Source: Brachynemurus nebulosus
Lineage: Eukaryota; Arthropoda; Insecta; Neuroptera; Myrmeleontidae
Reading direction: 5' to 3'
NCBI GenBank assembly: GCA_035578155.1
Contig: JAPWDM010000001.1
Coordinates: forward strand, 77,379,972-77,443,971
DNA: 64,000 nt
This document shows positions 7,643 to 45,800 of the stretch, piece after piece. The stretch's first letter is position 1, and each line of letters begins with the position of its first letter. The translations under genes were made by a program, and so were the position numbers. The notes beneath the pieces were generated by a model that worked only from the letters and a program-made list of their open reading frames with translations, had not been told where the DNA came from and did no database searches.

Positions 7643-7980
7643 GTAGGACTTTTTTCTTATATTTTAATTTTTTTATATAGTATATTAATTGAAATTACAA
7701 AAAAAAGATGTGTACTTAAATTAATTTCCATGTAAATTATGGAAAAACTGAATTTAAAATTAATGTCGCTTACGCCAAAATGTATTTACAAATTTAATCA
7801 TTGACGTAAGCGACAGTTACTTAATTTTTAACCCTTTGATGTTGCTTTGTAGTTCCTATTTAATTTTAGAAGTGTACTAATTTTACAAAAGTATTGTATA
7901 TACTAGATTCGGAAGTGTTAGTGTTAAATTTGAATATACTAATTTCTATTCTCTATTACTATTATTATTATTATTTTTAG
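7643..7980 (+). other. Putative 5'-UTR intron of the transposase gene
   Basis: A donor-like AACAG/GTAGGA at 7643 and a pyrimidine/T-rich acceptor ATTTTTAG ending at 7980 bracket 338 bp just before the ATG at 7995. It contains two subterminal GACGTAAGCG-type motifs. Splicing is inferred from consensus only. Confidence 0.4.
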
Positions 7981-7994
7981 ATATTATCTTAACA

Positions 7995-10301
7995 ATGGTA
8001 GAGGCTCAGCATAATGAAGATATTAAACAAATTTTATATAGCGTCATAGATAATATCGAAGGACATATTATAAAGGATATATTAAATGAATTAATAACAA
8101 AAGTTGAAACAAATAATACTACTACTCAAAATTATAATGAAAATTTTTATAATCAACCAGAAACACCTGATGAATTTTGTTTTATCAATGTTAATAATGA
8201 TGACCTTTTTGAGGCCTTACAACACGAACTTATACAAATAGAAAACATTACTCTAATAAATCAGGAATCAGTAAACACGCCCGATTTTGGAAATCAAATG
8301 TACATGGATGTTAGTCAACATATACTGCAAAGTGGTAATGAACTACAAATCAGTCATAAAGGAACCGACAATGATATTATGACTGTGACAACTAAAATAA
8401 ATTACAATGTACTAAAAGATAAGAATTTAAATACCGATTCTCAAAGCGATACGGATTCAGTAAGTAACAGTGGGGAAATACCAGATATTGAAAGTGATGC
8501 GGAAAACGAAGAAAATTTTGCTGGTTTAAAGAGAAAAAGAAAGCTTTCTCAAAGAGAGATTCAAAGATATAAAAGGTTGAAAGGTTTATCTTATGAAACG
8601 GCGAAAGGGAAACATAAGAAAGAAAAAACAGTTTTACCAAATCCTTGTAAAAAGAATACCTGTCAGAATAAATGCGTGTCTATTACATATGAAGAGAGAA
8701 AATTTTTTTTTGATAAATTTTGGGAACTTGGACAAGAAAACTTACAAAAACAATTTTTGAATAACTACATTGAGTGTCAAACAGTAAAGAGAAGGCGAGC
8801 AAAATTTTCAGAAAACAAATCGTACAGAAAAAATTACACTTTTAAATATTTTATTGAAAGTCCTGAAAAAAAGAAAATACAAGTATGTCAACAATTTTTA
8901 TTAAATACTTTAAACATATCGCAAAGATTACTAAGAACTGTAATAGATAATAGAAACTTAGATCGTTTTCCCGATATTGATTTGAGAGGAAGACATAAAC
9001 CCAAACACAAATGTATCGAGGAGGATGTATCCTTCTTAAAAACGTTTATTAAGAAGCTTCCTATGGTACCCAGCCATTATTGCCGCGCATCGTCTAGTGT
9101 AAAATATTTACCTGAGTATTATGGGTCATACAGAAAAATATATAAAGTATATGAACAAGAGTGCAAAAGCAAAAATATGACTACAGTTTCATATTCTACT
9201 TTTCATCGAATATTTCACAAAGATTACAATATAAGAATTCACCAACCAAAAAAAGATAAATGTTTAACTTGCGAAACTTATAAAAATATGGCAAATAAGA
9301 CAGAAGAAAATGAAAAATTACATCAAGAACATTTAAATGAAAAGGAGTCTGCAAAGTTAGTTTTTTTGAATGAACAAAATAAATGTAAATTTAATCCGAG
9401 TCTTATAGTAGCGAGTTTCGATTTACAAAAAGTTTTAAATACTCCTTTTGCACTTAATAATATGCTATTATATTACAGTAGACGATACAATGTTTATAAT
9501 TTTACAGTTTATGAATCTGGAAGTAGAAAAGCATATTGTTATTTATGGGGAGAAAGTGATGGCAATAGGGGTGCCAACGAAATATCAACAAATATTTTTG
9601 AATACTTGAAAGAAACCGATTTAAAGTCGTCTAATATTAAGGAAATATCTTTATATTGTGATAATTGTCCCGGACAAAACAAAAATAAAATTTTATTTTG
9701 TATGATAGATTTCTTTTTAAAAAATGTATCAAAGAAAATAACAAAAATAAAAGTAACATATTTAGTAGCAGGTCATTCATATATGCCTGTAGATTCTATG
9801 CATGCAGTTATAGAAAATAAAATTCGAAAGTCGGTGGTTTGGGCGCCCTCTGAATGGCCTACGATTATTACAAATTCCAGATATAAGCCCGAACCATATA
9901 CAGTAAAAAAACTAAATTATGAAAATTTCTACGATTTTAAGAATATGTTTAAAGGCGCATCATTGCATAATACAATTACAAAAAAGGATGTTAAAATTGG
10001 CGAAATTAAAAAAATATGTTTTGAAAAAGATGTCGAATCTATTAAATACTATAAGTCATACGATGATTCGCAAGAATTTATTGCAAAAATAAAAATTAAG
10101 AAATATCCTCTTAGTATTATTTCAGCATATTCTGAAAAATTACAGATAAATTCAAAAAAATATCATGATTTAAAAAGCCTTTGCGATAAACACATTATAC
10201 CAACCAATTATCACAAAGAATATTATGAACTGAAGTCATCGGACTTCGTTGAACTGTCACCATTAGATGTGAACGAAGATGATTCTAATATTAATGATTA
10301 A
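7995..10301 (+). CDS. DDE-type transposase, Sola-like (DUF7869-like core)
   Basis: The 768-aa ORF is uninterrupted. The N-terminal ~180 residues are acidic and low complexity. A Lys/Arg block (GLKRKRKLSQREIQRYKRLKG) and a short Cys cluster (PCKKNTCQNKC, about residues 217-227) follow and may bind DNA or zinc. The C-terminal half has the RNase H-like order of motifs: SFDLQKVL with Asp about 476, LYCDNCPGQNKN with Asp about 556, and AGHSYMPVDSMHAVIE with Glu about 607. The C-x-D-N-C-x-G-Q-N and GHS...E motifs are what I associate with DUF7869/Sola-type insect proteins. The start is the first ATG after a good acceptor. The element's inverted repeats flank it and no stop or frameshift is present, so it may be recently active. 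Codon use is AT-rich like the surroundings. Confidence 0.8.
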   Translation: MVEAQHNEDIKQILYSVIDNIEGHIIKDILNELITKVETNNTTTQNYNENFYNQPETPDEFCFINVNNDDLFEALQHELIQIENITLINQESVNTPDFGNQMYMDVSQHILQSGNELQISHKGTDNDIMTVTTKINYNVLKDKNLNTDSQSDTDSVSNSGEIPDIESDAENEENFAGLKRKRKLSQREIQRYKRLKGLSYETAKGKHKKEKTVLPNPCKKNTCQNKCVSITYEERKFFFDKFWELGQENLQKQFLNNYIECQTVKRRRAKFSENKSYRKNYTFKYFIESPEKKKIQVCQQFLLNTLNISQRLLRTVIDNRNLDRFPDIDLRGRHKPKHKCIEEDVSFLKTFIKKLPMVPSHYCRASSSVKYLPEYYGSYRKIYKVYEQECKSKNMTTVSYSTFHRIFHKDYNIRIHQPKKDKCLTCETYKNMANKTEENEKLHQEHLNEKESAKLVFLNEQNKCKFNPSLIVASFDLQKVLNTPFALNNMLLYYSRRYNVYNFTVYESGSRKAYCYLWGESDGNRGANEISTNIFEYLKETDLKSSNIKEISLYCDNCPGQNKNKILFCMIDFFLKNVSKKITKIKVTYLVAGHSYMPVDSMHAVIENKIRKSVVWAPSEWPTIITNSRYKPEPYTVKKLNYENFYDFKNMFKGASLHNTITKKDVKIGEIKKICFEKDVESIKYYKSYDDSQEFIAKIKIKKYPLSIISAYSEKLQINSKKYHDLKSLCDKHIIPTNYHKEYYELKSSDFVELSPLDVNEDDSNIND

Positions 10302-19577: not shown

Positions 19578-19678
19578 TTGATATGAGTAGTAGAAATATA
19601 GCGGTTTGGGGCCCTCCTCCCTCCTCCCGATTTTTAACGACTCTTAGAGGAGATAGGTAAGCTATGTCGTCTAGGTGG

Positions 19679-19862
19679 CGTTGCTGGTCTGAACCACTGT
19701 GAACTCTGTACCTTGATTCAAAATTCCATGAAAAGATGGCGTTGCTAGTCGGAACCACCGCGAATTCTGTACCTAGATTCAAAATTCCATGAAAAGATGG
19801 TGTTGCTAGTCGGAACCGCCGTGAATTCTGTACCTAGATTCAAAATTCCATGAAAAGATGGC
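19679..19862 (-). repeat. 61-bp tandem repeats near the outer end of the left arm
   Basis: Three units, each with CCATGAAAAGATGG, TTGCTAGTCGGAACC and GAATTCTGTACC. A partial fourth core lies further in at about 19950-19995. They mirror 29495-29678. They are not evidently coding, although a frame stays open through them on each arm. Confidence 0.8.
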
Positions 19863-20155
19863 TCTCGTAGTCTAGATCCTGTGTGTGAGTTTGAAAAATT
19901 GTCAATTGATGGCATCGAAAACCTTTTTTCGATAGTTAAAAAATGACAGTGCTAGTCTGAACCACCGCGAACTCTGTACCTTGATTCAAAATTTTATCAT
20001 ATTTTTATCTGAAAACAGGTTTAAAGTTGTATAAATTGTCAGCTGATGTCATTAGAAAATTTCTGTCTAATATGCGAAAAATGAATTTTATCGTATGATT
20101 TCATATTTTTATCTGAAAACGGGTTTATACAGGTTTTCTCTAAATAAAAATACAT

Positions 20156-20238
20156 TTTTTTTTATTTTTAATTTTTATTTTTATTTATTTTTTTATTTTT
20201 TTATTTTTTTATTTTTTTTATTTATTTTTTTTTGTTTT
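20156..20238. repeat. T-rich low-complexity tract (left arm)
   Basis: TTTTTATTT-type tract immediately downstream of the V-D-F-Q-G-F ORF stop on the minus strand. The mirror tract is at 29119-29201. Confidence 0.85.
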
Positions 20239-20280
20239 AATAAATTTATTTTAAAAGAAATATTTTTTACAATAAAATAT

Positions 20281-20802
20281 TTAAATGTTATTACAATAAT
20301 ATTTGTATATGGATATGACATTTTCCATGGCGCAAGTTGCTCCGGAATGATGGCCGCATCGAGGACTAGTGTATGTTGATGTTATGATTCTCAACTTGAG
20401 ACAAATTGTTATTTCTTCAAAGTTCATTATGGGCGCTGATGGTAGCAGTCGTTTCAAATAGCGTACTTTTTCTTCTCCTTTCATATAAATGATTCGAGTT
20501 CCGTGCAGATTGTTTATTAAAATGTATTGTAGTTCCTCGTATTCAATATGTCCATCCATCCAGGCGAACCCATGATGATTTTTCCGCAACCAGCGAGCTG
20601 TGCGTTGATCTTTTTCACTTAATCCACAAAACGGTATTGGCGATTTGAATACATAGTGCTGTAGTATATAATCTTCATCACAATTTTCTTCGGAAGAATC
20701 GAATTTCAACACAGCTAATTCCTTTATGTAGAATTTCCCATTTGTTGAATTTGGAAATCCTTGGAAGTCAACAATGCTGCGTCGGTCTTCATTGTGCGTT
20801 GT
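20281..20802 (-). CDS. V-D-F-Q-G-F-motif protein, left-arm copy
   Basis: The ORF is open for 173 codons and ends ...IYKYYCNNI. It begins after an in-frame TAG and has no ATG before the conserved-looking V-D-F-Q-G-F motif. It then contains FYIKELAVLKF, VFKSP.PFCGLS, WLRKNHHGF and a C-terminal Cys/His cluster (CGHHSGATCAMENV). I associate this arrangement with an abundant insect family found next to virus-like capsid genes; its fold may be RNase H-like but the function is unknown. An ATG lies just upstream in another frame, so translation would need splicing, recoding or an indel. It differs from the right-arm copy at two residues (Ile/Thr and Pro/Ser). Confidence 0.55.
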   Translation of the reverse strand, partial: TTHNEDRRSIVDFQGFPNSTNGKFYIKELAVLKFDSSEENCDEDYILQHYVFKSPIPFCGLSEKDQRTARWLRKNHHGFAWMDGHIEYEELQYILINNLHGTRIIYMKGEEKVRYLKRLLPSAPIMNFEEITICLKLRIITSTYTSPRCGHHSGATCAMENVISIYKYYCNNI

Positions 20803-20844
20803 CTAGAGCGAAACTAACTGATTTATAGCTGGATTGCGATGTTT

Positions 20845-22182
20845 TTATACATATTTTGTAACAATATTTGTCAATGGATTATATTGAACCACACGATCAT
20901 GTAGTAGAAGGCAAAATGCTGATGTATTCTCTGGCACCTCCTTCAACGTTTTAAATTCAATTGGAATATCCACTGGTCCACTTTTCAAAGTTTCGTTTTG
21001 ATGAGAACAATCGATGAATATGATTGGAGCGATATTCTTGAATTGCGTTTTGTTTAAAAGCGGTTCATTCTTCTTACAATCATAATATGCTTGTTGAAAT
21101 TTCGAATACATGTGATATGCTACTGCATATCTATCATTACTGAAATCCAAATTCAAATCCATGTACGGGTATTTCGCAGAATTTAAATAAACTTTGACGT
21201 CTGAAAGTTCACAGTGATCGAAAATACTGGAATCTTTATCTTTTTTATTTCGTCGATTCGTTTGTAGAGCGAATATAATGTAGCGTGGTTTCTCCAGTTG
21301 AGTCGATGTTTTCACCGTCCAAATGTTTTGTCTCGCTGTTGGAATCGTTGGCTGTATATGCATATCCCATGATCGAAAAGCAATTGTAATATCTTGACTA
21401 TTTTCCGCATATTTCAACAACTTCAGTTTCTGTTCATCTGCAGCCGTAAAGTGTGGAACCATCCATTGAATTTTATGTATATGGAAAGTGACGTCATCCG
21501 TTGGTGATATGACTGCATCGTGATCCGTCCGAGCCCGAGTCAGAATTAGTTGATGTTTTGCGTTGATGATAACTTTCTTGTAATGGTTAAGAAATCCAAA
21601 CATCCGCGCCAATGGTAGACAGAAATTGAAGTAGCCTTTTTCCGTTACTTTAATTGTTTCACCTGGACACCATCCGGCGTTGTAGAGTAGTTTGCTTTCA
21701 TTTTCGTTTAATGCCAAATAATTGATTAACGTTGTTGTCGGTCCCACGTACTTGCATTGATCGATTTCCACGTCGTTCAGTTCATATCGTATTTCTTCAA
21801 ACAGGTACGCCAATGAATTGTTGGATAATTCCGCTGTAGTCGATACTGTTTTATCACTCTTCAACAATTGTTCTTCTACATACAGACAACTTTCGTGCGG
21901 TAGCAGGATCAGATCTTGATTTTGACAGCATAGTCGAATTTCGTCGCTATTTCCAAACGCATTTAGAAATGGCGAATAGCAGTGATACTCGATGTTTGAA
22001 ATGCTCTCATCGAAATCGATGCTTAAAATGCTGCTTATTTTTTCCTCTTCAGCTTGAAACCCAATTGTCGAAGAAATTGTTTGTTCTCTCTTGTTAATGG
22101 TGGTCGTTGTTGCTTCTTCCTCGCCGATCCGTTCACCTTGGTGGCAAGTTGTAGACTGATCGGTCGCACCACATTTTCGTCT
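20845..22182 (-). CDS. Major-capsid-like protein, left-arm copy
   Basis: An open frame of about 445 codons ending in ...LTNIVTKYV. The part that looks protein-like starts near the NIEYHCYSPFLNAFGNSDEI stretch. Motifs I associate with double-jelly-roll capsid-like proteins of invertebrate Polinton/adintovirus-type elements include NSDEIRL...LPHESCLYVEE, PRYIIFALQTNR, FDHCELSDVKVYLNS.KYPY and a C-terminal SGPVDIPIEF. No in-frame ATG exists between the upstream stop and the conserved region, so the start is not visible. It overlaps the 53-aa ORF in another frame. It differs from the right-arm copy at one residue (Ala instead of Val in PHFT.ADE). Confidence 0.55.
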   Translation of the reverse strand, partial: RRKCGATDQSTTCHQGERIGEEEATTTTINKREQTISSTIGFQAEEEKISSILSIDFDESISNIEYHCYSPFLNAFGNSDEIRLCCQNQDLILLPHESCLYVEEQLLKSDKTVSTTAELSNNSLAYLFEEIRYELNDVEIDQCKYVGPTTTLINYLALNENESKLLYNAGWCPGETIKVTEKGYFNFCLPLARMFGFLNHYKKVIINAKHQLILTRARTDHDAVISPTDDVTFHIHKIQWMVPHFTAADEQKLKLLKYAENSQDITIAFRSWDMHIQPTIPTARQNIWTVKTSTQLEKPRYIIFALQTNRRNKKDKDSSIFDHCELSDVKVYLNSAKYPYMDLNLDFSNDRYAVAYHMYSKFQQAYYDCKKNEPLLNKTQFKNIAPIIFIDCSHQNETLKSGPVDIPIEFKTLKEVPENTSAFCLLLHDRVVQYNPLTNIVTKYV

Positions 22183-22196
22183 TTAAATACCAACAT
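22035..22196 (-). CDS. Small basic 53-aa protein, left-arm copy
   Basis: ATG-initiated only 2 nt after the stop of the penton-like gene. The product is Lys/Arg-rich (ARKKQQRPPLTRENKQFLL, ending KRKK). It resembles a short basic ORF that sits between penton-like and capsid-like genes in related elements, perhaps a nucleic-acid-binding core peptide. Its end overlaps the capsid-like ORF at a run of six A. Confidence 0.5.
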   Translation of the reverse strand: MLVFKDENVVRPISLQLATKVNGSARKKQQRPPLTRENKQFLRQLGFKLKRKK

Positions 22197-22198
22197 TT

Positions 22199-22897
22199 TC
22201 ACGCCGGCTTCAAATGCAGCTTTACTGTTATCGTTTCGCCTCGAAAATTCACTAAATTGCCGTCTTGATCCACAATTCGTAAAACTAGAGATGTTATCCG
22301 TCTCACGGTCACCGGCATATAAATAACTGTATTCGGTGATTCGCTTATTTTATACCCAGGTTCAACTTGAATCGAAAACGAATAAATATTATGTGCTGGA
22401 ATGTTGTTCAGATAGCTGTTCGTTGTAATGTTTGTTTCAACTTGTATCAGATTCACTTTCATGATATTCGTTGGTTTATCCGAATAGTGGTAATGACCAG
22501 CCGCAAGTTTTCGCTTACTGAAGCCAAGTAGCGAGCCAATTGTTCGTTCTTGATCGAAATGAATTGTTTCCATGCATTTTATTTCACTTTTTAGCGTATT
22601 GTTATTCGCACGAAGTATAAGTTGCGGGCTATCACCCGGTTTTCTCTTCTCTAGTATCCGATCTTCTATTTGAAACTCTAAATCTTCCAGATCATAATTG
22701 CCGACAGGTATCTCGATGCATTTCACTTCTTCTTCACCGTAATGAAATAAGTTATTTGTTTCGTCGATATTTGGTACTGCATTGTATGTTTCAAAATTGA
22801 CCAACCCGCATACATAATCACCCGGCAAATCGATGGGTGGAAAATATTCAGCTGTTAGTATAGATGAATCACCACTTAACGTTAATGTTAACGACAT
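22199..22897 (-). CDS. Penton/minor-capsid-like protein, left-arm copy
   Basis: A complete 232-aa ORF with a good ATG (MSLTLTLSGD). It contains DYVCGLVNFETYNAVPNIDE, LILRANNNTLKSEI, GSLLGFS and a C-terminal RIVDQDGNLVNFRGETITV block. It is a beta-rich, signal-less protein of the length expected for a single-jelly-roll penton or minor capsid protein. The family look is shared with capsid-linked insect endogenous virus genes; the role is inferred from neighbours. Protein identical in both arms. Confidence 0.6.
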   Translation of the reverse strand: MSLTLTLSGDSSILTAEYFPPIDLPGDYVCGLVNFETYNAVPNIDETNNLFHYGEEEVKCIEIPVGNYDLEDLEFQIEDRILEKRKPGDSPQLILRANNNTLKSEIKCMETIHFDQERTIGSLLGFSKRKLAAGHYHYSDKPTNIMKVNLIQVETNITTNSYLNNIPAHNIYSFSIQVEPGYKISESPNTVIYMPVTVRRITSLVLRIVDQDGNLVNFRGETITVKLHLKPA

Positions 22898-23038
22898 GGT
22901 GACTAAGATACGAATGAGAGAAACTTCTTATCATGGGTATATTTAAAGTATAGATGAAAAGTGAAACAAAATTATTCAAATATTTGTTTCCAAACTGATA
23001 AATGTCGCGATCAGTTAATGGTCGATCGGGTAGCTCGC

Positions 23039-23395
23039 TTAGCGGTTTTTTGATTCGATGTAAAGTCCCAAACCTCTTCTGTATGGTTTCAAATAAAGTC
23101 CAGTTCCAGATTTGGATCCAAGAGCAATTGCTTCCATCATCCTGTTATGACGTTCATTTTCATCCAATTGTTTCTTTGCTGTTTTATAAGCATTTACTGC
23201 TTTCGCAACACCAGCAGCACCTCCGGCAGGTGATCCTACAGCAGACAGGCCGGCAAAAAGTGGAACCAGGAATGGTAAAATTCCACCAGTTTTTGGAATT
23301 GGAATGATTCTCGGTGTTGTAAATTGACTGTTCTTACACCAAATTACACCAAAAATACACCAAAAATACACTGAATAACACCAAAAATACACCAA
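23039..23395 (-). CDS. GG-rich hydrophobic virion-core-like protein, left-arm copy
   Basis: The conserved part is PRIIPIPKTGGILPFLVPLF, followed by a Gly/Ala-rich hydrophobic stretch, a Lys/Asn helix with a basic-acidic pattern (KTAKKQLDENERHNRMMEAI) and GLYLKPYRRGLGLYIESKNR. TGG followed by a hydrophobic stretch resembles adenovirus/adintovirus pX-like or pVI-like core peptides. The nearest ATG lies inside the GGTGTA minisatellite, so the first ~25 residues (VYFWC repeats) are probably not genuine and the real start is unknown. Confidence 0.5.
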   Translation of the reverse strand: MVYFWCYSVYFWCIFGVIWCKNSQFTTPRIIPIPKTGGILPFLVPLFAGLSAVGSPAGGAAGVAKAVNAYKTAKKQLDENERHNRMMEAIALGSKSGTGLYLKPYRRGLGLYIESKNR

Positions 23396-23509
23396 TTAAC
23401 ACCAAAATTACACCAAAAATACACCAAATAACACCAAAATTACACCAAATTACACGAAAAATACACCAAACTACACCAAATGACACCAAAATTACATCAA
23501 AAAGACACC
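23335..23509. repeat. GGTGTAATTT-type minisatellite (left arm)
   Basis: Plus strand reads ACACCAAAAATACACCAAATTA over and over in units of 10-12 bp, abutting the 5' side of the GG-protein gene. Mirror of 25848-26022. Confidence 0.9.
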
Positions 23510-23660
23510 AAAGAGTCACTCCCAAAATGAGTCACTTCAAAAAAGAGTCACTCCCAAAAAGAATCACTCCGAAAATGAGTCACTCCCGTAATGAGTCACT
23601 CCCAAAAAGAGTCACTCCCAAAAAGAGTCACTCCCAAAAAGAGTCACTCCCAAAATGAGT
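23510..23660. repeat. GAGTCACTCCCAAAA minisatellite (left arm)
   Basis: Nine or so units of 15-16 bp. Each contains GAGTCACT, which embeds TGACTC, an AP-1-like half palindrome. Mirror of 25697-25847. Confidence 0.9.
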
Positions 23661-23856
23661 CCCTCTAAGTAGGTATGGGGCCACTTGGCAACGCGGTGTA
23701 ATTGCCTATATTGCCTATATCTCGTATAACCTAACGAGACCTAAGCGAACTTAGCTTAATCTAGGAATCCAAATTTTCCTACCAGATTGGCCAAGTGGCC
23801 ATTGAATATAGGCAATTACACCGCGTTGCCAAGTGGCTCCATACCTATTTAGAGGG
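23661..23856. mobile_element. 196-bp MITE inside the left arm
   Basis: It is bounded by inverted repeats of about 51 bp starting CCCTCTAARTAGGTATGG and containing GCCACTTGGCAACGCGGTG. The centre is 95 bp. It occupies the mirror position 25501-25696 in the other arm, so it inserted before the arms were duplicated. A diverged relative of the end sequence occurs near 56822 (GCGGCCACTTGACAACG). Confidence 0.85.
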
Positions 23857-24309
23857 CTAGGTCCTTAAGTGATAATTCCCGATTTTGATGAGACTTAACT
23901 AGTGTGTAGAACAAACAAAAATACCATACACATATTTTTTTTATCTGCTATAAAAACCATTTAAGGGGTGAAATGGACCTTCGAAGTTGGGGTGAAAATT
24001 TAATTTTATCAAATTATTCGAAAACTATAACAACTAGAAGAAAAATTTAAATTGGTATAATCCTTTATTTTTAAAGACCTTTCTATTGGCATACTCAAAT
24101 CCAGGGTCGGACCTATTAGAGGGGGCATGGACGATAAAATTGGGGGTGAAATTTGAAATAGGGTGAAAATGGTTTGACCAATCAAAATATTAATATCAAA
24201 TATGAAAAACTGCATCAAAATCAATATTAGTTTACCTGTTTTTACTAAACGCCGTACCGTTGCAACAAAAAAGTGTTAAATCTTAATCTAAAATCTTACA
24301 TATTCATTC
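23857..24309. other. Inner left arm, no gene supported
   Basis: Unique AT-rich segment mirrored at 25048-25500. It contains GGGGTGAAA/TTTCACCCC foldback-type blocks and a 71-codon frame that looks non-coding. Confidence 0.5.
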
Positions 24310-24353
24310 TATATTTTATCTGTAATACCGTTAGAAATAACTATTTCTCTTTG

Positions 24354-24457
24354 GGAGTGATTCTTTTGGGAGTGACTCATTCTGGGAGTGACTCATTTTG
24401 GGAGTGACTCGTTTTGGGAGTGACTCTTTTTTGGAGTGACTCATTTTGGTAGTGACT
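24354..24457. repeat. GGGAGTGACTC minisatellite (spacer copy)
   Basis: About seven 15-16-bp units, fewer than in the arms and with private variants. Confidence 0.85.
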
Positions 24458-24618
24458 CTTTGGTGTCTTTTTGATGTAAATTTGGTGTAATTTGGTGTAT
24501 TTTTCGTGTAATTTTGGTGTTATTTGGTGTATTTTTGGTGTAATTTTTGTGTTAATTGGTGTATCTTTGGTGTTATTCGGTGTATTTTTGGTGTATTTTT
24601 GGTGTAATTTGGTGTAAG
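24458..24618. repeat. GGTGTAATTT minisatellite (spacer copy)
   Basis: Shorter than the arm versions, with variants such as GGTGTATCTTTGG. It abuts the GG-protein copy. Confidence 0.85.
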
Positions 24619-24912
24619 AACAGTCAATTTACAACACCGAGAATCATTCCAATTCCAAAAACTGGTGGAATTTTACCATTCCTGGTTCCACTTTTTGCCG
24701 GCCTGTCTGCTGCAGGATCACTTGCCGGAGGTGCTGCTGGTGTTGCGAAAGCAGTAAATGCTTATAAAACAGCAAAGAAACAATTGGATGAAAATGAACG
24801 TCATAACAGGATGATGGAAGCAATTGCTCTTGGATCCAAATCTGGAACTGGACTTTATTTGAAACCATACAGAAGAGGTTTGGGACTTTACATCGAATCA
24901 AAAAACCGCTAA
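24556..24912 (+). CDS. GG-rich hydrophobic virion-core-like protein, spacer copy
   Basis: Same protein as the two arm copies from TTPRIIPIPKTGG onward, but with Ala-Gly-Ser-Leu-Ala where the arms have Val-Gly-Ser-Pro-Ala. The conserved part remains open to the same stop, ...YIESKNR. As in the arms the nearest ATG lies in the minisatellite. Downstream the penton-like gene is missing, so this copy stands alone. Confidence 0.45.
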   Translation: MVYLWCYSVYFWCIFGVIWCKNSQFTTPRIIPIPKTGGILPFLVPLFAGLSAAGSLAGGAAGVAKAVNAYKTAKKQLDENERHNRMMEAIALGSKSGTGLYLKPYRRGLGLYIESKNR

Positions 24913-25047
24913 GCGAGCTACCCGATCGACCATTAACTGATCGCGACATTTATCAGTTTGGAAACAAATATTTGAATAATTTTGTTTCACTTCTCATCTA
25001 TACTTTAAATATACCCATGATAAGAAGTTTCTCTCATTCGTATCTTC

Positions 25048-25500
25048 GAATGAATATGTAAGATTTTAGATTAAGATTTAACACTTTTTTGTTGCAACGG
25101 TACGGCGTTTAGTAAAAACAGGTAAACTAATATTGATTTTGATGCAGTTTTTCATATTTGATATTAATATTTTGATTGGTCAAACCATTTTCACCCTATT
25201 TCAAATTTCACCCCCAATTTTATCGTCCATGCCCCCTCTAATAGGTCCGACCCTGGATTTGAGTATGCCAATAGAAAGGTCTTTAAAAATAAAGGATTAT
25301 ACCAATTTAAATTTTTCTTCTAGTTGTTATAGTTTTCGAATAATTTGATAAAATTAAATTTTCACCCCAACTTCGAAGGTCCATTTCACCCCTTAAATGG
25401 TTTTTATAGCAGATAAAAAAAATATGTGTATGGTATTTTTGTTTGTTCTACACACTAGTTAAGTCTCATCAAAATCGGGAATTATCACTTAAGGACCTAG
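25048..25500. other. Inner right arm, no gene supported
   Basis: Mirror of 23857-24309. A 71-codon frame (25133-25348) is identical in both arms only because the DNA is; its composition does not suggest a protein. Confidence 0.5.
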
Positions 25501-25696
25501 CCCTCTAAATAGGTATGGAGCCACTTGGCAACGCGGTGTAATTGCCTATATTCAATGGCCACTTGGCCAATCTGGTAGGAAAATTTGGATTCCTAGATTA
25601 AGCTAAGTTCGCTTAGGTCTCGTTAGGTTATACGAGATATAGGCAATATAGGCAATTACACCGCGTTGCCAAGTGGCCCCATACCTACTTAGAGGG
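25501..25696. mobile_element. 196-bp MITE inside the right arm
   Basis: Inverted copy of 23661-23856 with the same ~51-bp inverted repeats (CCCTCTAAATAGGTATGG). Confidence 0.85.
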
Positions 25697-25847
25697 ACTC
25701 ATTTTGGGAGTGACTCTTTTTGGGAGTGACTCTTTTTGGGAGTGACTCTTTTTGGGAGTGACTCATTACGGGAGTGACTCATTTTCGGAGTGATTCTTTT
25801 TGGGAGTGACTCTTTTTTGAAGTGACTCATTTTGGGAGTGACTCTTT
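25697..25847. repeat. GGGAGTGACTC minisatellite (right arm)
   Basis: About nine 15-16-bp units with TGACTCTTTTTGGGAG as the core. Mirror of the left arm. Confidence 0.9.
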
Positions 25848-26022
25848 GGTGTCTTTTTGATGTAATTTTGGTGTCATTTGGTGTAGTTTGGTGTATTTTT
25901 CGTGTAATTTGGTGTAATTTTGGTGTTATTTGGTGTATTTTTGGTGTAATTTTGGTGTTAATTGGTGTATTTTTGGTGTTATTCAGTGTATTTTTGGTGT
26001 ATTTTTGGTGTAATTTGGTGTA
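25848..26022. repeat. GGTGTAATTT minisatellite (right arm)
   Basis: Units of 10-12 bp alternate TTTTTGGTGTA and ATTTGGTGTA. They run directly into the GG-protein coding sequence. Confidence 0.9.
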
Positions 26023-26318
26023 AGAACAGTCAATTTACAACACCGAGAATCATTCCAATTCCAAAAACTGGTGGAATTTTACCATTCCTGGTTCCACTTT
26101 TTGCCGGCCTGTCTGCTGTAGGATCACCTGCCGGAGGTGCTGCTGGTGTTGCGAAAGCAGTAAATGCTTATAAAACAGCAAAGAAACAATTGGATGAAAA
26201 TGAACGTCATAACAGGATGATGGAAGCAATTGCTCTTGGATCCAAATCTGGAACTGGACTTTATTTGAAACCATACAGAAGAGGTTTGGGACTTTACATC
26301 GAATCAAAAAACCGCTAA
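25962..26318 (+). CDS. GG-rich hydrophobic virion-core-like protein, right-arm copy
   Basis: The genuine-looking part starts about 26025 (SQFTTPRIIPIPKTGG) and ends ...GLYIESKNR. Order: TGG-hydrophobic segment, Gly/Ala-rich stretch, charged helix, then a GLYLKPYRRGLGLYI tail with repeated Gly-Leu-Tyr. It lies ~140 bp upstream of the penton-like gene on the same strand, as in the left arm. The ATG at 25962 is within the minisatellite and encodes repeat-derived VYFWC residues, so the start is doubtful. The pX-like reading is inference from shape and context. Confidence 0.5.
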   Translation: MVYFWCYSVYFWCIFGVIWCKNSQFTTPRIIPIPKTGGILPFLVPLFAGLSAVGSPAGGAAGVAKAVNAYKTAKKQLDENERHNRMMEAIALGSKSGTGLYLKPYRRGLGLYIESKNR

Positions 26319-26459
26319 GCGAGCTACCCGATCGACCATTAACTGATCGCGACATTTATCAGTTTGGAAACAAATATTTGAATAATTTTGTTTCACTTTT
26401 CATCTATACTTTAAATATACCCATGATAAGAAGTTTCTCTCATTCGTATCTTAGTCACC

Positions 26460-27158
26460 ATGTCGTTAACATTAACGTTAAGTGGTGATTCATCTATACT
26501 AACAGCTGAATATTTTCCACCCATCGATTTGCCGGGTGATTATGTATGCGGGTTGGTCAATTTTGAAACATACAATGCAGTACCAAATATCGACGAAACA
26601 AATAACTTATTTCATTACGGTGAAGAAGAAGTGAAATGCATCGAGATACCTGTCGGCAATTATGATCTGGAAGATTTAGAGTTTCAAATAGAAGATCGGA
26701 TACTAGAGAAGAGAAAACCGGGTGATAGCCCGCAACTTATACTTCGTGCGAATAACAATACGCTAAAAAGTGAAATAAAATGCATGGAAACAATTCATTT
26801 CGATCAAGAACGAACAATTGGCTCGCTACTTGGCTTCAGTAAGCGAAAACTTGCGGCTGGTCATTACCACTATTCGGATAAACCAACGAATATCATGAAA
26901 GTGAATCTGATACAAGTTGAAACAAACATTACAACGAACAGCTATCTGAACAACATTCCAGCACATAATATTTATTCGTTTTCGATTCAAGTTGAACCTG
27001 GGTATAAAATAAGCGAATCACCGAATACAGTTATTTATATGCCGGTGACCGTGAGACGGATAACATCTCTAGTTTTACGAATTGTGGATCAAGACGGCAA
27101 TTTAGTGAATTTTCGAGGCGAAACGATAACAGTAAAGCTGCATTTGAAGCCGGCGTGA
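26460..27158 (+). CDS. Penton/minor-capsid-like protein, right-arm copy
   Basis: Identical 232-aa product to the left-arm copy, from ATG 26460 with no signal peptide or membrane segment. The early part has alternating hydrophobic/acidic strands (GNYDLEDLEFQIEDRILEKR), the middle has RANNNTLKSEIKCM, and the C-terminus has the VDQDG...NFRGETITVKLHLKP block. Its stop is followed by AA and the ATG of the 53-aa ORF, a compact virus-like spacing. Confidence 0.6.
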   Translation: MSLTLTLSGDSSILTAEYFPPIDLPGDYVCGLVNFETYNAVPNIDETNNLFHYGEEEVKCIEIPVGNYDLEDLEFQIEDRILEKRKPGDSPQLILRANNNTLKSEIKCMETIHFDQERTIGSLLGFSKRKLAAGHYHYSDKPTNIMKVNLIQVETNITTNSYLNNIPAHNIYSFSIQVEPGYKISESPNTVIYMPVTVRRITSLVLRIVDQDGNLVNFRGETITVKLHLKPA

Positions 27159-27160
27159 AA

Positions 27161-27322
27161 ATGTTGGTATTTAAAGACGAAAATGTGGTGCGACCGATCA
27201 GTCTACAACTTGCCACCAAGGTGAACGGATCGGCGAGGAAGAAGCAACAACGACCACCATTAACAAGAGAGAACAAACAATTTCTTCTACAATTGGGTTT
27301 CAAGCTGAAGAGGAAAAAATAA
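27161..27322 (+). CDS. Small basic 53-aa protein, right-arm copy
   Basis: ATG two bases after the penton-like stop. The 53 residues are strongly basic and end in KLKRKK before TAA at 27320-27322. The frame overlaps the capsid-like ORF by about 150 nt. The overlap ends at AGGAAAAAATAAGC, where a -1 slip on the six-A run would enter the capsid-like frame. Whether that happens is unknown; an independent small core protein is equally plausible. Confidence 0.5.
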   Translation: MLVFKDENVVRPISLQLATKVNGSARKKQQRPPLTRENKQFLLQLGFKLKRKK

Positions 27323-28512
27323 GCAGCATTTTAAGCATCGATTTCGATGAGAGCATTTCAAACATCGAGTATCACTGCTATTCGCCATTTCTAAATGCGT
27401 TTGGAAATAGCGACGAAATTCGACTATGCTGTCAAAATCAAGATCTGATCCTGCTACCGCACGAAAGTTGTCTGTATGTAGAAGAACAATTGTTGAAGAG
27501 TGATAAAACAGTATCGACTACAGCGGAATTATCCAACAATTCATTGGCGTACCTGTTTGAAGAAATACGATATGAACTGAACGACGTGGAAATCGATCAA
27601 TGCAAGTACGTGGGACCGACAACAACGTTAATCAATTATTTGGCATTAAACGAAAATGAAAGCAAACTACTCTACAACGCCGGATGGTGTCCAGGTGAAA
27701 CAATTAAAGTAACGGAAAAAGGCTACTTCAATTTCTGTCTACCATTGGCGCGGATGTTTGGATTTCTTAACCATTACAAGAAAGTTATCATCAACGCAAA
27801 ACATCAACTAATTCTGACTCGGGCTCGGACGGATCACGATGCAGTCATATCACCAACGGATGACGTCACTTTCCATATACATAAAATTCAATGGATGGTT
27901 CCACACTTTACGGTTGCAGATGAACAGAAACTGAAGTTGTTGAAATATGCGGAAAATAGTCAAGATATTACAATTGCTTTTCGATCATGGGATATGCATA
28001 TACAGCCAACGATTCCAACAGCGAGACAAAACATTTGGACGGTGAAAACATCGACTCAACTGGAGAAACCACGCTACATTATATTCGCTCTACAAACGAA
28101 TCGACGAAATAAAAAAGATAAAGATTCCAGTATTTTCGATCACTGTGAACTTTCAGACGTCAAAGTTTATTTAAATTCTGCGAAATACCCGTACATGGAT
28201 TTGAATTTGGATTTCAGTAATGATAGATATGCAGTAGCATATCACATGTATTCGAAATTTCAACAAGCATATTATGATTGTAAGAAGAATGAACCGCTTT
28301 TAAACAAAACGCAATTCAAGAATATCGCTCCAATCATATTCATCGATTGTTCTCATCAAAACGAAACTTTGAAAAGTGGACCAGTGGATATTCCAATTGA
28401 ATTTAAAACGTTGAAGGAGGTGCCAGAGAATACATCAGCATTTTGCCTTCTACTACATGATCGTGTGGTTCAATATAATCCATTGACAAATATTGTTACA
28501 AAATATGTATAA
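27175..28512 (+). CDS. Major-capsid-like protein, right-arm copy
   Basis: Open frame bounded by TAA at 27172-27174 and ending TAA after KYV. No ATG occurs before the protein-like region (about 27320 onward), and the first possible non-AUG start after that is a TTG at 27490, too far in to give a whole domain. Features: Asn/Asp-rich N-terminal strand block, PHFTVADE, FRSWDMHIQP, FDHCELSDVKVYLNS, YHMYSKFQQAYYDC, FIDCSHQNETLKSGPVDIPI. These fit a double-jelly-roll capsid-like family seen in invertebrate DNA-virus-derived elements, although at ~400 residues it is shorter than typical Polinton capsids. The assignment is by recollection and needs a structure search. Confidence 0.55.
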   Translation, partial: RRKCGATDQSTTCHQGERIGEEEATTTTINKREQTISSTIGFQAEEEKISSILSIDFDESISNIEYHCYSPFLNAFGNSDEIRLCCQNQDLILLPHESCLYVEEQLLKSDKTVSTTAELSNNSLAYLFEEIRYELNDVEIDQCKYVGPTTTLINYLALNENESKLLYNAGWCPGETIKVTEKGYFNFCLPLARMFGFLNHYKKVIINAKHQLILTRARTDHDAVISPTDDVTFHIHKIQWMVPHFTVADEQKLKLLKYAENSQDITIAFRSWDMHIQPTIPTARQNIWTVKTSTQLEKPRYIIFALQTNRRNKKDKDSSIFDHCELSDVKVYLNSAKYPYMDLNLDFSNDRYAVAYHMYSKFQQAYYDCKKNEPLLNKTQFKNIAPIIFIDCSHQNETLKSGPVDIPIEFKTLKEVPENTSAFCLLLHDRVVQYNPLTNIVTKYV

Positions 28513-28554
28513 AAACATCGCAATCCAGCTATAAATCAGTTAGTTCCGCTCTAG

Positions 28555-29076
28555 ACAACGCACAATGAAGACCGACGCAGCATTGTTGACTTCCAAGGAT
28601 TTCCAAATTCAACAAATGGGAAATTCTACATAAAGGAATTAGCTGTGTTGAAATTCGATTCTTCCGAAGAAAATTGTGATGAAGATTATATACTACAACA
28701 CTATGTATTCAAATCACCAACACCGTTTTGTGGATTAAGTGAAAAAGATCAACGCACAGCTCGCTGGTTGCGGAAAAATCATCATGGGTTCGCCTGGATG
28801 GATGGACATATTGAATACGAGGAACTACAATACATTTTAATAAACAATCTGCACGGAACTCGAATCATTTATATGAAAGGAGAAGAAAAAGTACGCTATT
28901 TGAAACGACTGCTACCATCAGCGCCCATAATGAACTTTGAAGAAATAACAATTTGTCTCAAGTTGAGAATCATAACATCAACATACACTAGTTCTCGATG
29001 CGGCCATCATTCCGGAGCAACTTGCGCCATGGAAAATGTCATATCCATATACAAATATTATTGTAATAACATTTAA
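28555..29076 (+). CDS. V-D-F-Q-G-F-motif protein, right-arm copy
   Basis: 173 codons open after an in-frame TAG at 28552-28554. CTCTAG there could also be a splice acceptor, with TAG as its last bases. The first ATG nearby (28565) is in another frame and closes after about 22 codons. Contains VDFQGFPNS, YIKELAVLKF, TARWLRKNHHGFAWMDGHI, IIYMKGEEKVRYLKRLL and a C-terminal C-G-H-H...C-A-M-E-N cluster. Function unknown. It follows the capsid-like ORF by 42 bp on the same strand. In this arm the variable residues are Thr and Ser. Confidence 0.55.
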   Translation, partial: TTHNEDRRSIVDFQGFPNSTNGKFYIKELAVLKFDSSEENCDEDYILQHYVFKSPTPFCGLSEKDQRTARWLRKNHHGFAWMDGHIEYEELQYILINNLHGTRIIYMKGEEKVRYLKRLLPSAPIMNFEEITICLKLRIITSTYTSSRCGHHSGATCAMENVISIYKYYCNNI

Positions 29077-29118
29077 ATATTTTATTGTAAAAAATATTTC
29101 TTTTAAAATAAATTTATT

Positions 29119-29201
29119 AAAACAAAAAAAAAAAAATAAATAAAAAAAATAAAAAAATAAAAAAATAAATAAAAATAAAAATTAAAAATAAAAAAAAATG
29201 T
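29119..29201. repeat. A-rich low-complexity tract (right arm)
   Basis: AAAAAATAAATAAAA-type tract following an AATAAA-like signal (about 29107) after the last ORF. Mirror of 20156-20238. Confidence 0.85.
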
Positions 29202-29494
29202 GTTTTTATTTAGAGAAAACCTGTATAAACCCGTTTTCAGATAAAAATATGAAATCATACGATAAAATTCATTTTTCGCATATTAGACAGAAATTTTCTA
29301 ATGACATCAGCTGACAATTTATACAACTTTAAACCTGTTTTCAGATAAAAATATGATAAAATTTTGAATCAAGGTACAGAGTTCGCGGTGGTTCAGACTA
29401 GCAGTGTCATCTTTTAACTATCGAAAAAAGGTTTTCGATGCCATCAATTGACAATTTTTCAAACTCACACACAGGATCTAGACTACGAGAGCCA

Positions 29495-29678
29495 TCTTTT
29501 CATGGAATTTTGAATCTAGGTACAGAATTCACGGCGGTTCCGACTAGCAACACCATCTTTTCATGGAATTTTGAATCTAGGTACAGAATTCGCGGTGGTT
29601 CCGACTAGCAACGCCATCTTTTCATGGAATTTTGAATCAAGGTACAGAGTTCACAGTGGTTCAGACCAGCAACGCCAC
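29495..29678 (+). repeat. 61-bp tandem repeats near the outer end of the right arm
   Basis: Three units of 61 bp, each with TCTTTTCATGGAATTTTGAA, GGTACAGAATTC and GACTAGCAACGCCA. A partial unit lies upstream at about 29365-29400. Mirror of the left arm. Confidence 0.8.
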
Positions 29679-29779
29679 CTAGACGACATAGCTTACCTAT
29701 CTCCTCTAAGAGTCGTTAAAAATCGGGAGGAGAGAGGAGAGCCCCAAACCGCTATATTCCTACTACTGATATGTGACAA

Positions 29780-30230: not shown

Positions 30231-31744
30231 GTAGCCAGGCTATAAGAGTTCAGGAGGACAGTAAAACCCCAATTTTCCGGACTACTTTTTGACGGTGTTA
30301 AGAACCGTGTAGTTTGGGGTCCTACTGTACCTCGTGTATGGATTGACCTTTGGCCCGGCACGTACCGAGTACATGTATCAAAATTTGTTGTTGACATTTG
30401 ACTCGCTCATACTGTTGGCCTTGAAATTCCTAAGACATGAGTCATCACCCGCAACCAAATTAATTCAAGTTAACCCATTATGCGTCATCACAATTTGTTC
30501 ATCACGGATTGGTTTTCTGTTAACCCATTACCCGCCAGCACTAACGTAGTTTTTGAATCCAAACCTAACGCATGCGCAGACTGAATTTTAGTACACGACG
30601 CATGCGCAGACTGAATTTTTAGAACCCGACGCATGCGCAGACTGAATTTTAGTACACGACGCATGCGCAGACTGAATTTTAGAACCCGACGCATGCGCAG
30701 ACTGAATTTTAGGCTACAAATTGATAGATAGGGTACACTACCGCTTCAAAAATGTGGGGTTACCCTAACTCGGGGTGGCTCCAAACTTTTGACACCGTAG
30801 TGTACTTAAATTTTTGGTACACTGCGGTGTCAAAAGTGCGGGCCCGCTGGCTAAAAAGGTATCCTATCACTTTTGAAGCGTACTGTACTTATTTTGTGTA
30901 CGTGCAAACCTTGACCCTAACACGCGCTTACCTTAATTGCGTCATTTTAAACGAAAGGTACACTACCGCATCAAAAATGTGGGGATTAGCCTAACTCAAG
31001 GGGTGGCCCCAAACTTTTGACACCGTACTGTACTTACATTTTTGGTACACTACCGTGTCAAAAGTGTGGCCCCCCCGGTGAAAAAGGTATATGATCACTT
31101 TTTGAAGCGTACAGTACTTATTTTATGTACGTGCAAATCTTGGCCTTTGACCCCAACACACGCTTGCCTTAACTGCGTCATCTTAAACGAAAATCGGGGG
31201 AGGCCCCTAAATTTTGTGGGGGGCACTGTACCAAGCGCTACCGCAAAACTAACTTCATACTCCAGGGTCCAGATTCCAGAGTCCAGTGTCCAGATTTCAG
31301 ACTGGTCTGAATTCAGTCACAAATTCAGTCTGCGCATGCGTCGGGTTCTAAAATTCAGTCTGCGCATGCGTCGTGTACTAAAATTCAGTCTGCGCGTGCG
31401 CTAGGTTTGGATTCAAAAACTACGTTAGTGCTGGCGGGTAATGGATTAACACAAAACCAATTCGTGATGAACAAATTGTGATGACGTATAATGGGTTAAC
31501 TTGAATTAATTTGGTTGCGGGTGATGACTCATGTCTTAGGAATTTCAAGGTCAACAGTATGAGCGAGTGTGGGGTCAAATGTCAACAATAAATTTTGATA
31601 CATGTACTCGGTACGTGCCGGATCAAAGGTCAATTCATACACGAGGTACAGTAGGATCCCAAACTACATGGTTCTTAACACCGTCGAAAGTAGTCCGGAA
31701 AATTGGGGTTTTACTGTGCTCCTGAACTCTTATAGCCTACCTAC
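30231..31744. mobile_element. 1.5-kb foldback element with CGCATGCGCA repeats
   Basis: Long imperfect inverted repeats: the left starts GTAG..AGGCTATAAGAG (about 30231) and the right ends CTCTTATAGCCT (about 31738). They extend about 480 bp inward through CCAATTTTCCGGACTAC, the ACATGAGTCATCACCCGC region and a GCATGCGCAGACTGAATTTT minisatellite. The centre has two diverged ~227-bp direct repeats (GGTACACTACCGCWTCAAAAATGTGG at about 30731 and 30958). Open frames here, including MRRVLKFSLRMRR on the minus strand, are repeat artefacts. Confidence 0.75.
30565..30715. repeat. ~30-bp minisatellite, GCATGCGCAGACTGAATTTT
   Basis: Five units in the left arm of the foldback element; three inverted units lie at 31320-31405. 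Each holds CGCATGCGCA, one base off the NRF-1 palindromic consensus. Confidence 0.85.
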
Positions 31745-41230: not shown

Positions 41231-42120
41231 TTAGTTGCATAAAATTACAAACTGTAAATACATATTTCCAAAATAATTATTAATAAAAGTATTTTTGAGG
41301 TCAATAATTTCGTTTGCTATGGAAACTGCTACAATTTGCCCATTATTAATTAACAGTTCAAATTCATCTATATCAATATTTTTTGGCGAAGGTGGCAGTT
41401 CATCATGCGTTGTACGTGCAATATTTTGTAGTACTGCAGCAGCTGCAATTACTGGTAGAGATGTTTGAAGTTTTAATCTCAAACCATATGCAAGAAAAAG
41501 AAAACGTCTCTTCCAATTTCCGAACAATCGTTCAATGGTATTCCTGGTTCTTATATGTGATCCACTATATAGTTGTTCGGCCCTTGTTACAGGATTTGCT
41601 AATGGAGTTAAAAAATAATTTCGCAGTGGATAACCTCTGTCACCCAAGAGCACCGTATTTAAAAAATCACCACCTTGCTCTTAATCGACTGTTAATAAAA
41701 ATCGTCGAATCGTGTGTAGATCCTGGCCACCTTGCTACTATATCTAATATTTCTAAATTTGCAGTGGCAGTAACTTGGGTATTTATTGAAAAATATGACT
41801 TACGATTATAAAACATTTCTACATCGTTACCACCAGGGGATTGTATTTTAATATGAGTGTCATCTATCACTAACAATACGCGAGGAAATAACGCAATTTC
41901 GAAAAATTCGATTTTTATTCTTTGAATAGCAGTTTCGGTTTCAGGCATTTTAATGAATATTGGCCGAAGCATTGCAATTGCTCTCGGGACACGCTTAATA
42001 ATTCTCGATACCGTTGAAACATGCATACCTCCAAAATCAGCGATAGAATTCACATGTCCAAAAGATGCATAAAATACAAGCGTCGTTAATAATTGATTCA
42101 TTGGGGAAACACTGTTGTTA
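41231..42120 (-). pseudogene. PIF-Harbinger nuclease (HARBI1-like), frameshifted (element 1)
   Basis: The first part (42120-41667) holds SVSPMNQLLTTL, a helix-turn-helix GGMHVSTVSRIIKRV, VIDDTHIKIQSP (first catalytic Asp) and ARWPGSTHDSTIF. The second part (41653-41231), in another frame, holds LLGDRGYPL (second Asp) and TRNTIERLFGNWKRRF (Glu). So the DDE triad of the DDE_Tnp_4 family survives, but a small indel at about 41665-41670 breaks the frame after RLRARW. The N-terminal ~80 residues upstream of 42120 are missing or in an unrecognised exon. No terminal inverted repeat was found. Confidence 0.75.
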
Positions 42121-43157
42121 TTAAAACAGAAATAGAGATATTTGCTTCTGAGAGGTCCCTGGGGATTTCTCGAGTGAAGGCTCCTCGTGAAAATATAAGC
42201 AAATTAAGAAAATTTTCTCCGAAAAAAAACTTCCTTCCTATTGTACTATATAAGCCACACAAATTTAAATAGTTTTAGACTGATACAAAAACGTATCTAA
42301 ATTGTGTATCTAGATACAAATTTATTTTGAGTATCTGTATCTGTAACAAGATACACTCTGAGTATCTGTATCTGTATCAAGATACATTTTATATAGTATC
42401 TATACAGCACTGCGGAAACCATACGAACTATAAAGACTATACCAATCGGTTTCCCCCAATAGACCGATAAAATTTACTCATTTAGAGGGAAATAAAAAAA
42501 AATTGTTACCTGGACTTTTATATAGTAAAGGGGTTCACAATAAACATAAAAAAATAAATGTGTTAGTAGGAGCGGAGGAGGGTCGATTTGAGAGGTCTCA
42601 AAGGGGTTAAAAATTGTATTATTGTAATTTCCCGCAAAAATCAAAGTCAAAGGAAAAAGTATCCTTTACAAAAGTTGTAGATCATGCAAAAATTTACAAC
42701 TTGTTAAAGCTCACTTTTTAACATGTCATAAAATGACAGCCCTTTGGCATGTAATGAAAGTTACATATTTACAGTCTCTTTGATATCTGTAAGGCGCAAG
42801 CTCGAAAATACGTGCATGTTTGCTTATAGCTAGGTTTGATTTTCAATATCTATTGATTAGTATAATTTTTAACATCAGTTGATCAATATAATTTTTCAAT
42901 ATCAGTTGATTAACATAATTTACAATATCAGTATGTTTTTTAATGCGGTATAATTAATATAATTTTTGAAGTAGTATGATTTTGAACGATCTTTAAATTT
43001 AAAAAAGATTATTATTTAAACCGTTTTAGTGTGAGTACTCGCCCAAAAAAATCAAGTCTACCGCTCATCTCCGTTGTGTAACATACCAACCCAGTTATCA
43101 AAATGGCGAAAGTAATTGGACGCTCCTATGATTCGCTTGCAAATGTGCAAACATGGG

Positions 43158-44930: not shown

Positions 44931-45024
44931 ATCAGTTTAACAAGGAACCTAATCCCGTTGAATTTGATCAAACAGACTTGAATAACATAAATTATGTAGA
45001 GGATGAGGGTTTTCTGCCTACAAC

Positions 45025-45360
45025 CTCGAATCTGCCGGATACATAGAGTTAAATCTCCAGCAAACAAAAAACGGAACGTTACCTTGTATACTAATTAGGA
45101 ATGGACCTCACATACTCAAGTTCCTCATTGATACCGGAGCGAACAATAACTTTATCGACCCTAAGCATACGGACAAAATGACGTTAATACCAACCGACAT
45201 TGAAGTAAAAACTGCTTTAAACACACATAAAATCAATAGCAAAATATGTGTACAATACTTAAAAGAATTGAACAACAAAGACCCGCTAGAGTTCTTAATC
45301 TTCAAGTTTCACTATTTCTTTGATGGTATTATAGGTAACCAGACATTACGGCAATTATAG
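45025..45360 (+). pseudogene. Errantivirus aspartic protease region
   Basis: Contains LKFLIDTGANNNFIDPK, the D-T-G active site of retropepsins, and ends FDGIIGNQTLRQL followed by TAG. Confidence 0.75.
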
Positions 45361-45800
45361 ACAAAAATAAATTACAACAATCGTACCATACAGTTCGGTA
45401 ATAAAGTGAATAGACTCTATTATAAACCGTGTATCACACCTCTAGTATTCACGCTTGAAGCACGCGAACAGCGATTAATAGAACTACCCACACTAGTTAA
45501 AGATGGTGACATATTAGTACCTAGTATTAAGTTAAATCATCATGTACAAACTATTAATGGAATATAAACAGCATATAATAATAAAACAAAAATATTTATC
45601 ACTAATAATTCTGATGAAAAACAACACATTATCATAACACAACCACTGAATAGTGAACCGTTAAATAACTGCATAGAAATCAACAATATCAATACACACG
45701 AACCAATAGATGTGGATTATTCTGACAACTACAAATTCGTTACCGACAACATACGGATGAAGCACTTAAAGAAGAACAAAATGCTTTAATCAACCTATGT

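Follow-up and report, generated by a model that had tools for sequence, protein, structure and literature searches.

Mavericks, also known as Polintons, look like viruses, and no Maverick particles have been observed; according to the excerpted parts of a survey of the vertebrate elements, their ends read 5'-(AGT)2//(ACT)2-3' and they are bordered by 6-bp target-site duplications (TSDs) (PMC8097293). Among adeno-associated virus (AAV) genomes, snapback forms fall into a rep-end class and a capsid-end class, and regulatory roles have been proposed for them (PMC8235507, excerpts). Here we report that a stretch of 64,000 nucleotides from the neuropteran Brachynemurus nebulosus (assembly GCA_035578155.1, contig JAPWDM010000001.1, forward-strand positions 77,379,972 to 77,443,971; hereafter the window, whose own numbering is used below) holds a 10-kb palindrome. 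We read it, at a probability of about 0.75, as a non-autonomous Maverick/Polinton derivative in which one end of the linear genome, comprising the terminal repeat and the capsid block, is doubled head to head around an inverted-repeat core.

The palindrome is bordered on both sides by a perfect 6-bp target duplication, GATATG (19580–19585 and 29768–29773), which defines a discrete insertion of 10,182 bp at 19586–29767; a preliminary description of this locus had the size right, at about 10.2 kb, and placed the limits at 19578 and 29779, outside the exact unit. Directly 3' of the left GATATG, the left arm (19586–24309, + strand) opens with the terminus AGTAGTAG, which is the (AGT)2 end motif of Mavericks (PMC8097293, excerpts), and directly 5' of the right GATATG the right arm (25048–29767, − strand) closes with CTACTACT. 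Both terminal regions contain 61-bp tandem repeats (19676–19862, +; 29491–29677, −). Since Maverick termini and a 6-bp target duplication stand at the ends, the palindrome must have been integrated as one unit.

The inverted arms, aligned as 19581–24309 against 25048–29772, differ by 16 mismatches and one 4-nt indel over 4,729 columns, in agreement with a separate repeat search and with the few base differences first described. The exact mirroring also claimed at that stage, with coordinates summing to 49357, holds for 20712 + 28645 and 20281 + 29076 and is lost further out, where the indel shifts it. One mismatch (19585/29768) sits in the target duplication, so that 15 substitutions and the indel remain as arm differences within the element. 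Every arm difference falls within the outer 2.49 kb, the inner 2.24 kb being free of them, a placing with a probability of about 2e-5 for 17 events, or about 3e-5 by hand for 16.

Each arm carries genes for a double jelly-roll (DJR) major capsid protein (MCP; 20845–22038, −, and 27319–28512, +), a 232-aa penton-like protein (22199–22897, −, and 26460–27158, +), a 53-aa basic protein (22035–22196, −, and 27161–27322, +) and an open frame of 173 codons with no assigned function (20281–20802, −, and 28555–29076, +), followed by the tail of a PLA2-type gene (a 118-codon frame at 23039–23395, −, and 25962–26318, +). The capsid protein matches PF21738 (E 4.3e-118), and structure searches back the DJR fold for the MCP and the penton fold for its partner, with viral jelly-roll capsids scoring far above unrelated entries; the virus-like character proposed for these genes was thus borne out by the comparison that had been suggested for it. 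The best viral fold matches for this MCP include R9XLG5, a protein of Cotesia sesamiae Mombasa bracovirus. No relatives of the capsid protein were found in the IMG/VR viral contigs (capsid and penton scans) or in the GTDB genomes (one scan), nor any of the penton in the viral contigs, and the 173-codon protein returned no homologue at E <= 0.001.

The gene set is nevertheless not complete, as had been supposed. Where other copies start, neither the capsid frame nor the 173-codon frame has an ATG in either arm, and the MCP has in addition a short deletion near its N-terminus. Relative to longer copies, a deletion of about 0.3 kb has removed most of a cysteine protease frame (left-arm junction at 22978–22992), and the PLA2 gene is reduced to its 3' end. 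The same deletion junction is found in a second palindrome of this genome, at C1:11M.

Compared with what defines a Maverick, the palindrome has the 6-bp TSD, (AGT)2//(ACT)2 ends with terminal inverted repeats, and both a DJR MCP and a single jelly-roll penton. Its 10,182 bp fall short of the usual length of about 15–20 kb, and no frame for an integrase, packaging ATPase, protease or protein-primed family B polymerase (pPolB) lies between the TSDs, which upholds the earlier observation that replication and integration genes are missing there. Because these frames are absent, we class the palindrome as a non-autonomous derivative and not as a full Maverick. Its structure is that of a defective snapback genome: one genome end made palindromic, viral termini at both ends and no replication genes.

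The same genome contains full-length relatives. We searched the 960 Mb assembly, and all locus counts given here are lower bounds from the candidates scored. With the left half as query (22 scored of 7,381 candidates), at least 18 single-arm loci and at least three inverted pairs were found besides the window; two further loci, C129:28.75M and C106:47.5M, lay outside that set and were found otherwise. An independent new virus without relatives is ruled out by these single loci and pairs. Some relatives reach 17–18 kb, and the two whose ends were both read measure 17,819 bp (TGGGTT duplication) and 17,360 bp (CACACA duplication), with a variant motif at the right end in one long copy. One long relative carries protease(-like), PLA2, ATPase, integrase and PolB-like genes; beyond PLA2, the long copy at C91 continues with an ATPase gene, an open frame of 368 codons, an integrase gene whose product has an rve domain, and an open frame of 1,363 codons containing C2H2 fingers. 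From family-B motifs recognised by eye, we take this last frame to be a putative protein-primed PolB. Capsid and penton frames were full in all eight non-palindromic copies examined; among the same eight, the PLA2 frame was missing from one, the protease frame from one and a full 170-aa frame from two, one of these two being cut by the fetched stretch.

Nor is the palindrome alone. The loci C1:57.0M, C1:11.4M and C118 share its design, and a core made of two tandem arrays (A and B) and a segment X is common to all. A genome search with X (40 scored of 4,333 candidates) matched at least 39 loci. Of the six that were fetched in addition to the window, C129 has capsid-end arms; in the other five the arms come from the N-terminal end of a PolB-like gene from another Maverick lineage (37–78% amino acid identity in the matched pieces). 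With a further X locus, C106:47.5M, which is capsid-end and was read on its left side only, capsid-end arms stand on the shared inverted-repeat core at six loci. A search with the PolB arm (40 scored of 86 candidates) gave at least 25 loci, namely 15 inverted pairs and 10 single arms. An X match is listed between the arms in 12 of the 15 pairs and is absent, for the other three, among the X matches listed. PolB-end palindromes thus outnumber capsid-end ones among those counted. The polymerase or integrase that might have been expected between the arms was in none of the palindromes read; it is as arms that the sister palindromes carry a polymerase-like end.

All seven palindromes read at both ends, as well as both long copies, are bordered by a 6-bp duplication. 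The seven palindrome duplications are perfect and all different (GATATG, TATATA, AATGCC, TTTATG, AGAGAT, TACAAA and TGTCTT; the last four were taken by eye from the flanking sequence). Given the base composition, a single 6-bp match has a chance of about 6e-4, the weakest case being TATATA because of its composition. Lengths range from 9.7 to 10.9 kb (mean 10.18, SD 0.40, n = 7, one after subtraction of a 2,478-bp later insertion), and this clustering at 10.2 kb, regardless of which end forms the arms, may point to a limit on size, perhaps one set by packaging or replication. The junction between PLA2 and core is alike in four of the five capsid-arm palindromes compared, with single-base differences nearby, and differs in C1:57M; the PolB junction is alike, with small differences, in five of five loci (L032 and L037 being counted as one locus).

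Two sister loci have features of their own. The C118 contig stops inside the second arm (C118:602198, the end of L009), in a palindrome whose arms are 100% identical and separated by 7 nt; this palindrome is possibly an assembly fold-back. In the C1:11M palindrome, a 631-codon reverse-transcriptase frame is inserted beside array A in the left arm only (L012, 6032–7927), with a C-terminal match to a group I intron endonuclease. We assume the endonuclease to be of the GIY-YIG type and the element Penelope-like.

In the window, the left part of the core (23335–23668, +) consists of array A (ACACCAAA-type) followed by array B (16-bp, GAGTCACTCCC-type). Segment X (23669–24349, +), matched at the 39 listed loci, includes a stretch that shows a relationship to terminal repeats of the Maverick family (local score 115, against a shuffle maximum of 45.5), and arrays B and A recur in a central copy (24350–24617, −) and in a right copy (25692–26022, −). 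The plain two-arm layout first described therefore stands for the arms and not for the centre, which holds a third PLA2 remnant (the 118-codon frame at 24556–24912, +) and, at 25047–26452 (−), one base plus an exact inverted copy of 22905–24309. The third remnant is probably the original right-arm copy; compared with either arm, it shows 7 differences in 545 sites. We infer that a template switch re-copied the inner left arm into the right arm, and this would be why the inner 2.2 kb of the arms are identical.

Arms are close to identical elsewhere too. In coding parts they diverge by 0.27% in the window and by 0.00% at both C1:57M and C1:11M, against 0.1–2.7% between different copies. Over a longer stretch the C1:57M arms show 19 differences in 4,813 columns, mostly in one repeat unit, and in those of C1:11M the outer part has 8 differing columns in 3,887 and the core 28 in 914. 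The idea that arm differences follow a general gradient was considered and rejected, the differences lying wholly in the outer part in the window, near the centre in C1:57M and in both parts in C1:11M.

How such palindromes may arise can be outlined in four steps. A linear genome would replicate and fold back at the core, through a hairpin-capped or snapback half-molecule, making a palindrome of one half; palindromes can seed large inverted duplications through hairpin-capped ends (PMC3315005, excerpts). The product would have a replication and integration terminus at both ends, as an integrase and a terminus-primed polymerase require. This 10-kb molecule would next be copied and inserted by the polymerase and integrase of full-length relatives acting in trans; that it was inserted as a palindrome follows from the target duplications and end motifs. 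The two arm classes, the shared core and the separate target duplications suggest a third step, in which palindromes built on one core either formed from one or the other end of different Maverick lineages or were recombined onto it, and multiplied, in whichever order. Finally, arm-to-arm copying would keep the arms near identical, the exact 1.4-kb inverted copy at the window centre being an observed instance of copying. The replication of a linear DNA element proposed in the preliminary description fits this origin; the hairpin-ended, captured intermediate proposed with it is not supported, since the ends are Maverick termini with a 6-bp duplication. Cut-and-paste movement can hardly account for single-end palindromes whose termini are intact and whose target duplications are separate; they fit the replication of free linear DNA. 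Most likely, the palindrome is a parasite of full-length elements that needs only termini, and perhaps length, and is not a capsid factory.

Several points weigh against the snapback-type derivative. It calls for mobilisation of the palindromes in trans, and the palindromes are known here from assembled genome sequence alone. The polymerase-like frame matches no PolB profile or sequence in Pfam, NCBIfam, PHROGs or the PDB, and in C58:5.19M, the 17,360-bp member of the two long copies with both ends read, this frame is split and no integrase frame is listed. Single arms make up 10 of the 25 PolB-arm loci. Because the capsid-arm junctions differ between lineages, there must have been more than one formation, or later recombination or arm exchange; in the capsid-arm tree C1:11M groups with C1:57M (support 72), and the window and C118 stay apart. 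The core, finally, may be a fold-back element in its own right, although no solitary copy was observed.

This last possibility, a Foldback-type transposon of arrays A and B around X that sits between Maverick arms by chance, draws on the likeness of short tandem arrays arranged as inverted repeats around a middle segment, an arrangement that we take to be typical of Foldback elements. We hold it to be quite unlikely. Maverick arms surround all 11 cores looked at (29 of the 39 listed X loci lie outside this count), the sequences next to the core are inverted wherever both sides were read, with no direct target duplication around it, and X itself contains the stretch related to Maverick terminal repeats. 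Another local scenario, in which a normal Maverick inserted and its left half was then duplicated in inverted orientation in place of the right half, can point to the copying that did occur inside the palindrome (25047–26452). It would have to stop exactly at the far terminus each time, yet matching TSDs and Maverick termini occur at the outer ends of seven of seven palindromes and the same core at no fewer than 39 loci, which makes it highly improbable. To an assembly artefact from folded reads we give almost no weight: the C118 palindrome may be one, as its contig ends within a fully identical second arm, but the window arms differ at 15 sites and one indel between unique flanks that share a TSD, and the 15 PolB-arm pairs and further capsid-arm pairs are spread over many contigs.

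The two remaining alternatives concern function. Head-to-head capsid genes might boost the capsid supply of helper Mavericks, an idea already present in the preliminary description as a satellite that supplies capsids. The genes are doubled and divergent, 3' snapback genomes of AAV increase the level of capsid protein (PMC8235507, excerpts), pN/pS (nonsynonymous over synonymous differences) is low in the family and the one C118 arm looked at, the left, has full capsid and penton frames. The idea is weakened to the point of being very unlikely by lesions that break the MCP or penton in both arms of all three capsid-arm palindromes read on both sides (a lost capsid start in the window, a capsid stop in C1:57M and a lost penton start in C1:11M), against none of the eight non-palindromic copies, and by the larger number of PolB-end palindromes among those counted. 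Alternatively, the palindromes may be retained as hairpin-RNA loci, whose read-through transcripts would form long double-stranded RNA that targets the capsid and polymerase genes of Mavericks and enters small-RNA silencing, from which host or element would benefit. The geometry permits this, with PolB-like arms read into the core and capsid genes outward, the arms are near identical although some frames are broken, and AAV 5' snapback genomes have been proposed to permit transcription of double-stranded RNA (PMC8235507, excerpts). However, the TSDs indicate mobility, which is enough to explain the copy number without any benefit, and the proposal is drawn from DNA only; we consider it unlikely.

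Nine other distinct copies, palindromes among them, give a pN/pS of 0.027 for the capsid frame when compared with one another (36 pairs), and the window left arm compared with them gives 0.147 (9 pairs); the values are 0.136 (45 pairs) and 0.143 (10 pairs) for the penton and 0.098 (36 pairs) and 0.154 (9 pairs) for the 173-codon frame, the second figure in each case being the window left arm against the others. Copies with a match of another length or not spanning the frame were dropped, and pairs are not independent. By these ratios the Maverick family was under purifying selection, and selection on the window capsid gene looks relaxed, as expected from the loss of its start.

Elsewhere the window contains (AACCT)n blocks within a 66-bp tandem unit (12–670), which presumably resemble insect telomere repeats and lie deep inside the contig (77.38 Mb of 195.7 Mb). 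Further features are an 805-codon open frame with DUF7869 (7881–10295, +), DDE_Tnp_4 transposase matches in two adjoining frames (41234–42200, −) and a Ty3-like retroelement (43893–50087) with a PF00078 reverse transcriptase, a capsid-like match below the Pfam cut-off and a later env-sized frame without a Pfam match. Two more fold-back pairs lie at 51809–54478 and 30264–31712, with arms of about 220–246 bp and 139–219 bp.

Taken as snapback-type Maverick derivatives, the palindromes would be snapback satellites that belong to this virus group and are carried by a genome in multiple copies, and they could also give rise to long hairpin RNA directed against the group. More tentatively, by analogy, the core might be a transmissible 'palindromising' module that folds whichever Maverick half it joins into a 10-kb, two-terminus satellite, copied and integrated by a helper that it may regulate or interfere with through its duplicated capsid or polymerase end, in the way suggested for AAV snapback genomes. 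If so, the host genome would preserve, like a fossil record, past replication of Mavericks outside the chromosomes by protein priming.

The absence of a described system with this architecture, noted at the outset, has to be qualified: the kind of element is recognisable as a Maverick derivative, and it is the palindromic form that appears in no title found in the Maverick, Polinton and adintovirus literature, which was covered in part, with subscription papers mostly outside. The 'snapback genome' literature found pairs that term with neither Maverick nor Polinton. We therefore regard the architecture as a new variety of Maverick, with a strong structural case and a mechanism that is proposed. 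It shares with Mavericks/Polintons (polintoviruses, adintoviruses) the (AGT)2//(ACT)2 ends, the 6-bp TSD, the terminal inverted repeats and the DJR capsid and penton genes, but it measures 10 kb instead of about 17 kb, consists of a single, duplicated genome end, lacks polymerase, integrase, ATPase and protease, and has the arrays and core segment X in its middle. Defective adenovirus genomes with symmetric end duplications are similar in that one end of a protein-primed linear virus is palindromically doubled; they arise in culture and are not integrated, unlike the Maverick palindromes. AAV snapback genomes (5'-SBG and 3'-SBG; PMC8235507, excerpts) are likewise defective palindromic half-genomes with a replication-end and a capsid-end class, but they are packaged DNA of parvovirus particles, whereas the palindromes here are Maverick-derived, share a core and are integrated in the genome with TSDs. 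The deletion derivative of the kalilo linear plasmid, with its hairpin and duplex forms (Vierula and Bertrand 1992, as cited in PMC11071308, excerpts), is also a fold-back form of a linear, protein-primed element; it is a mitochondrial plasmid, and the Maverick palindromes are an integrated genomic family.

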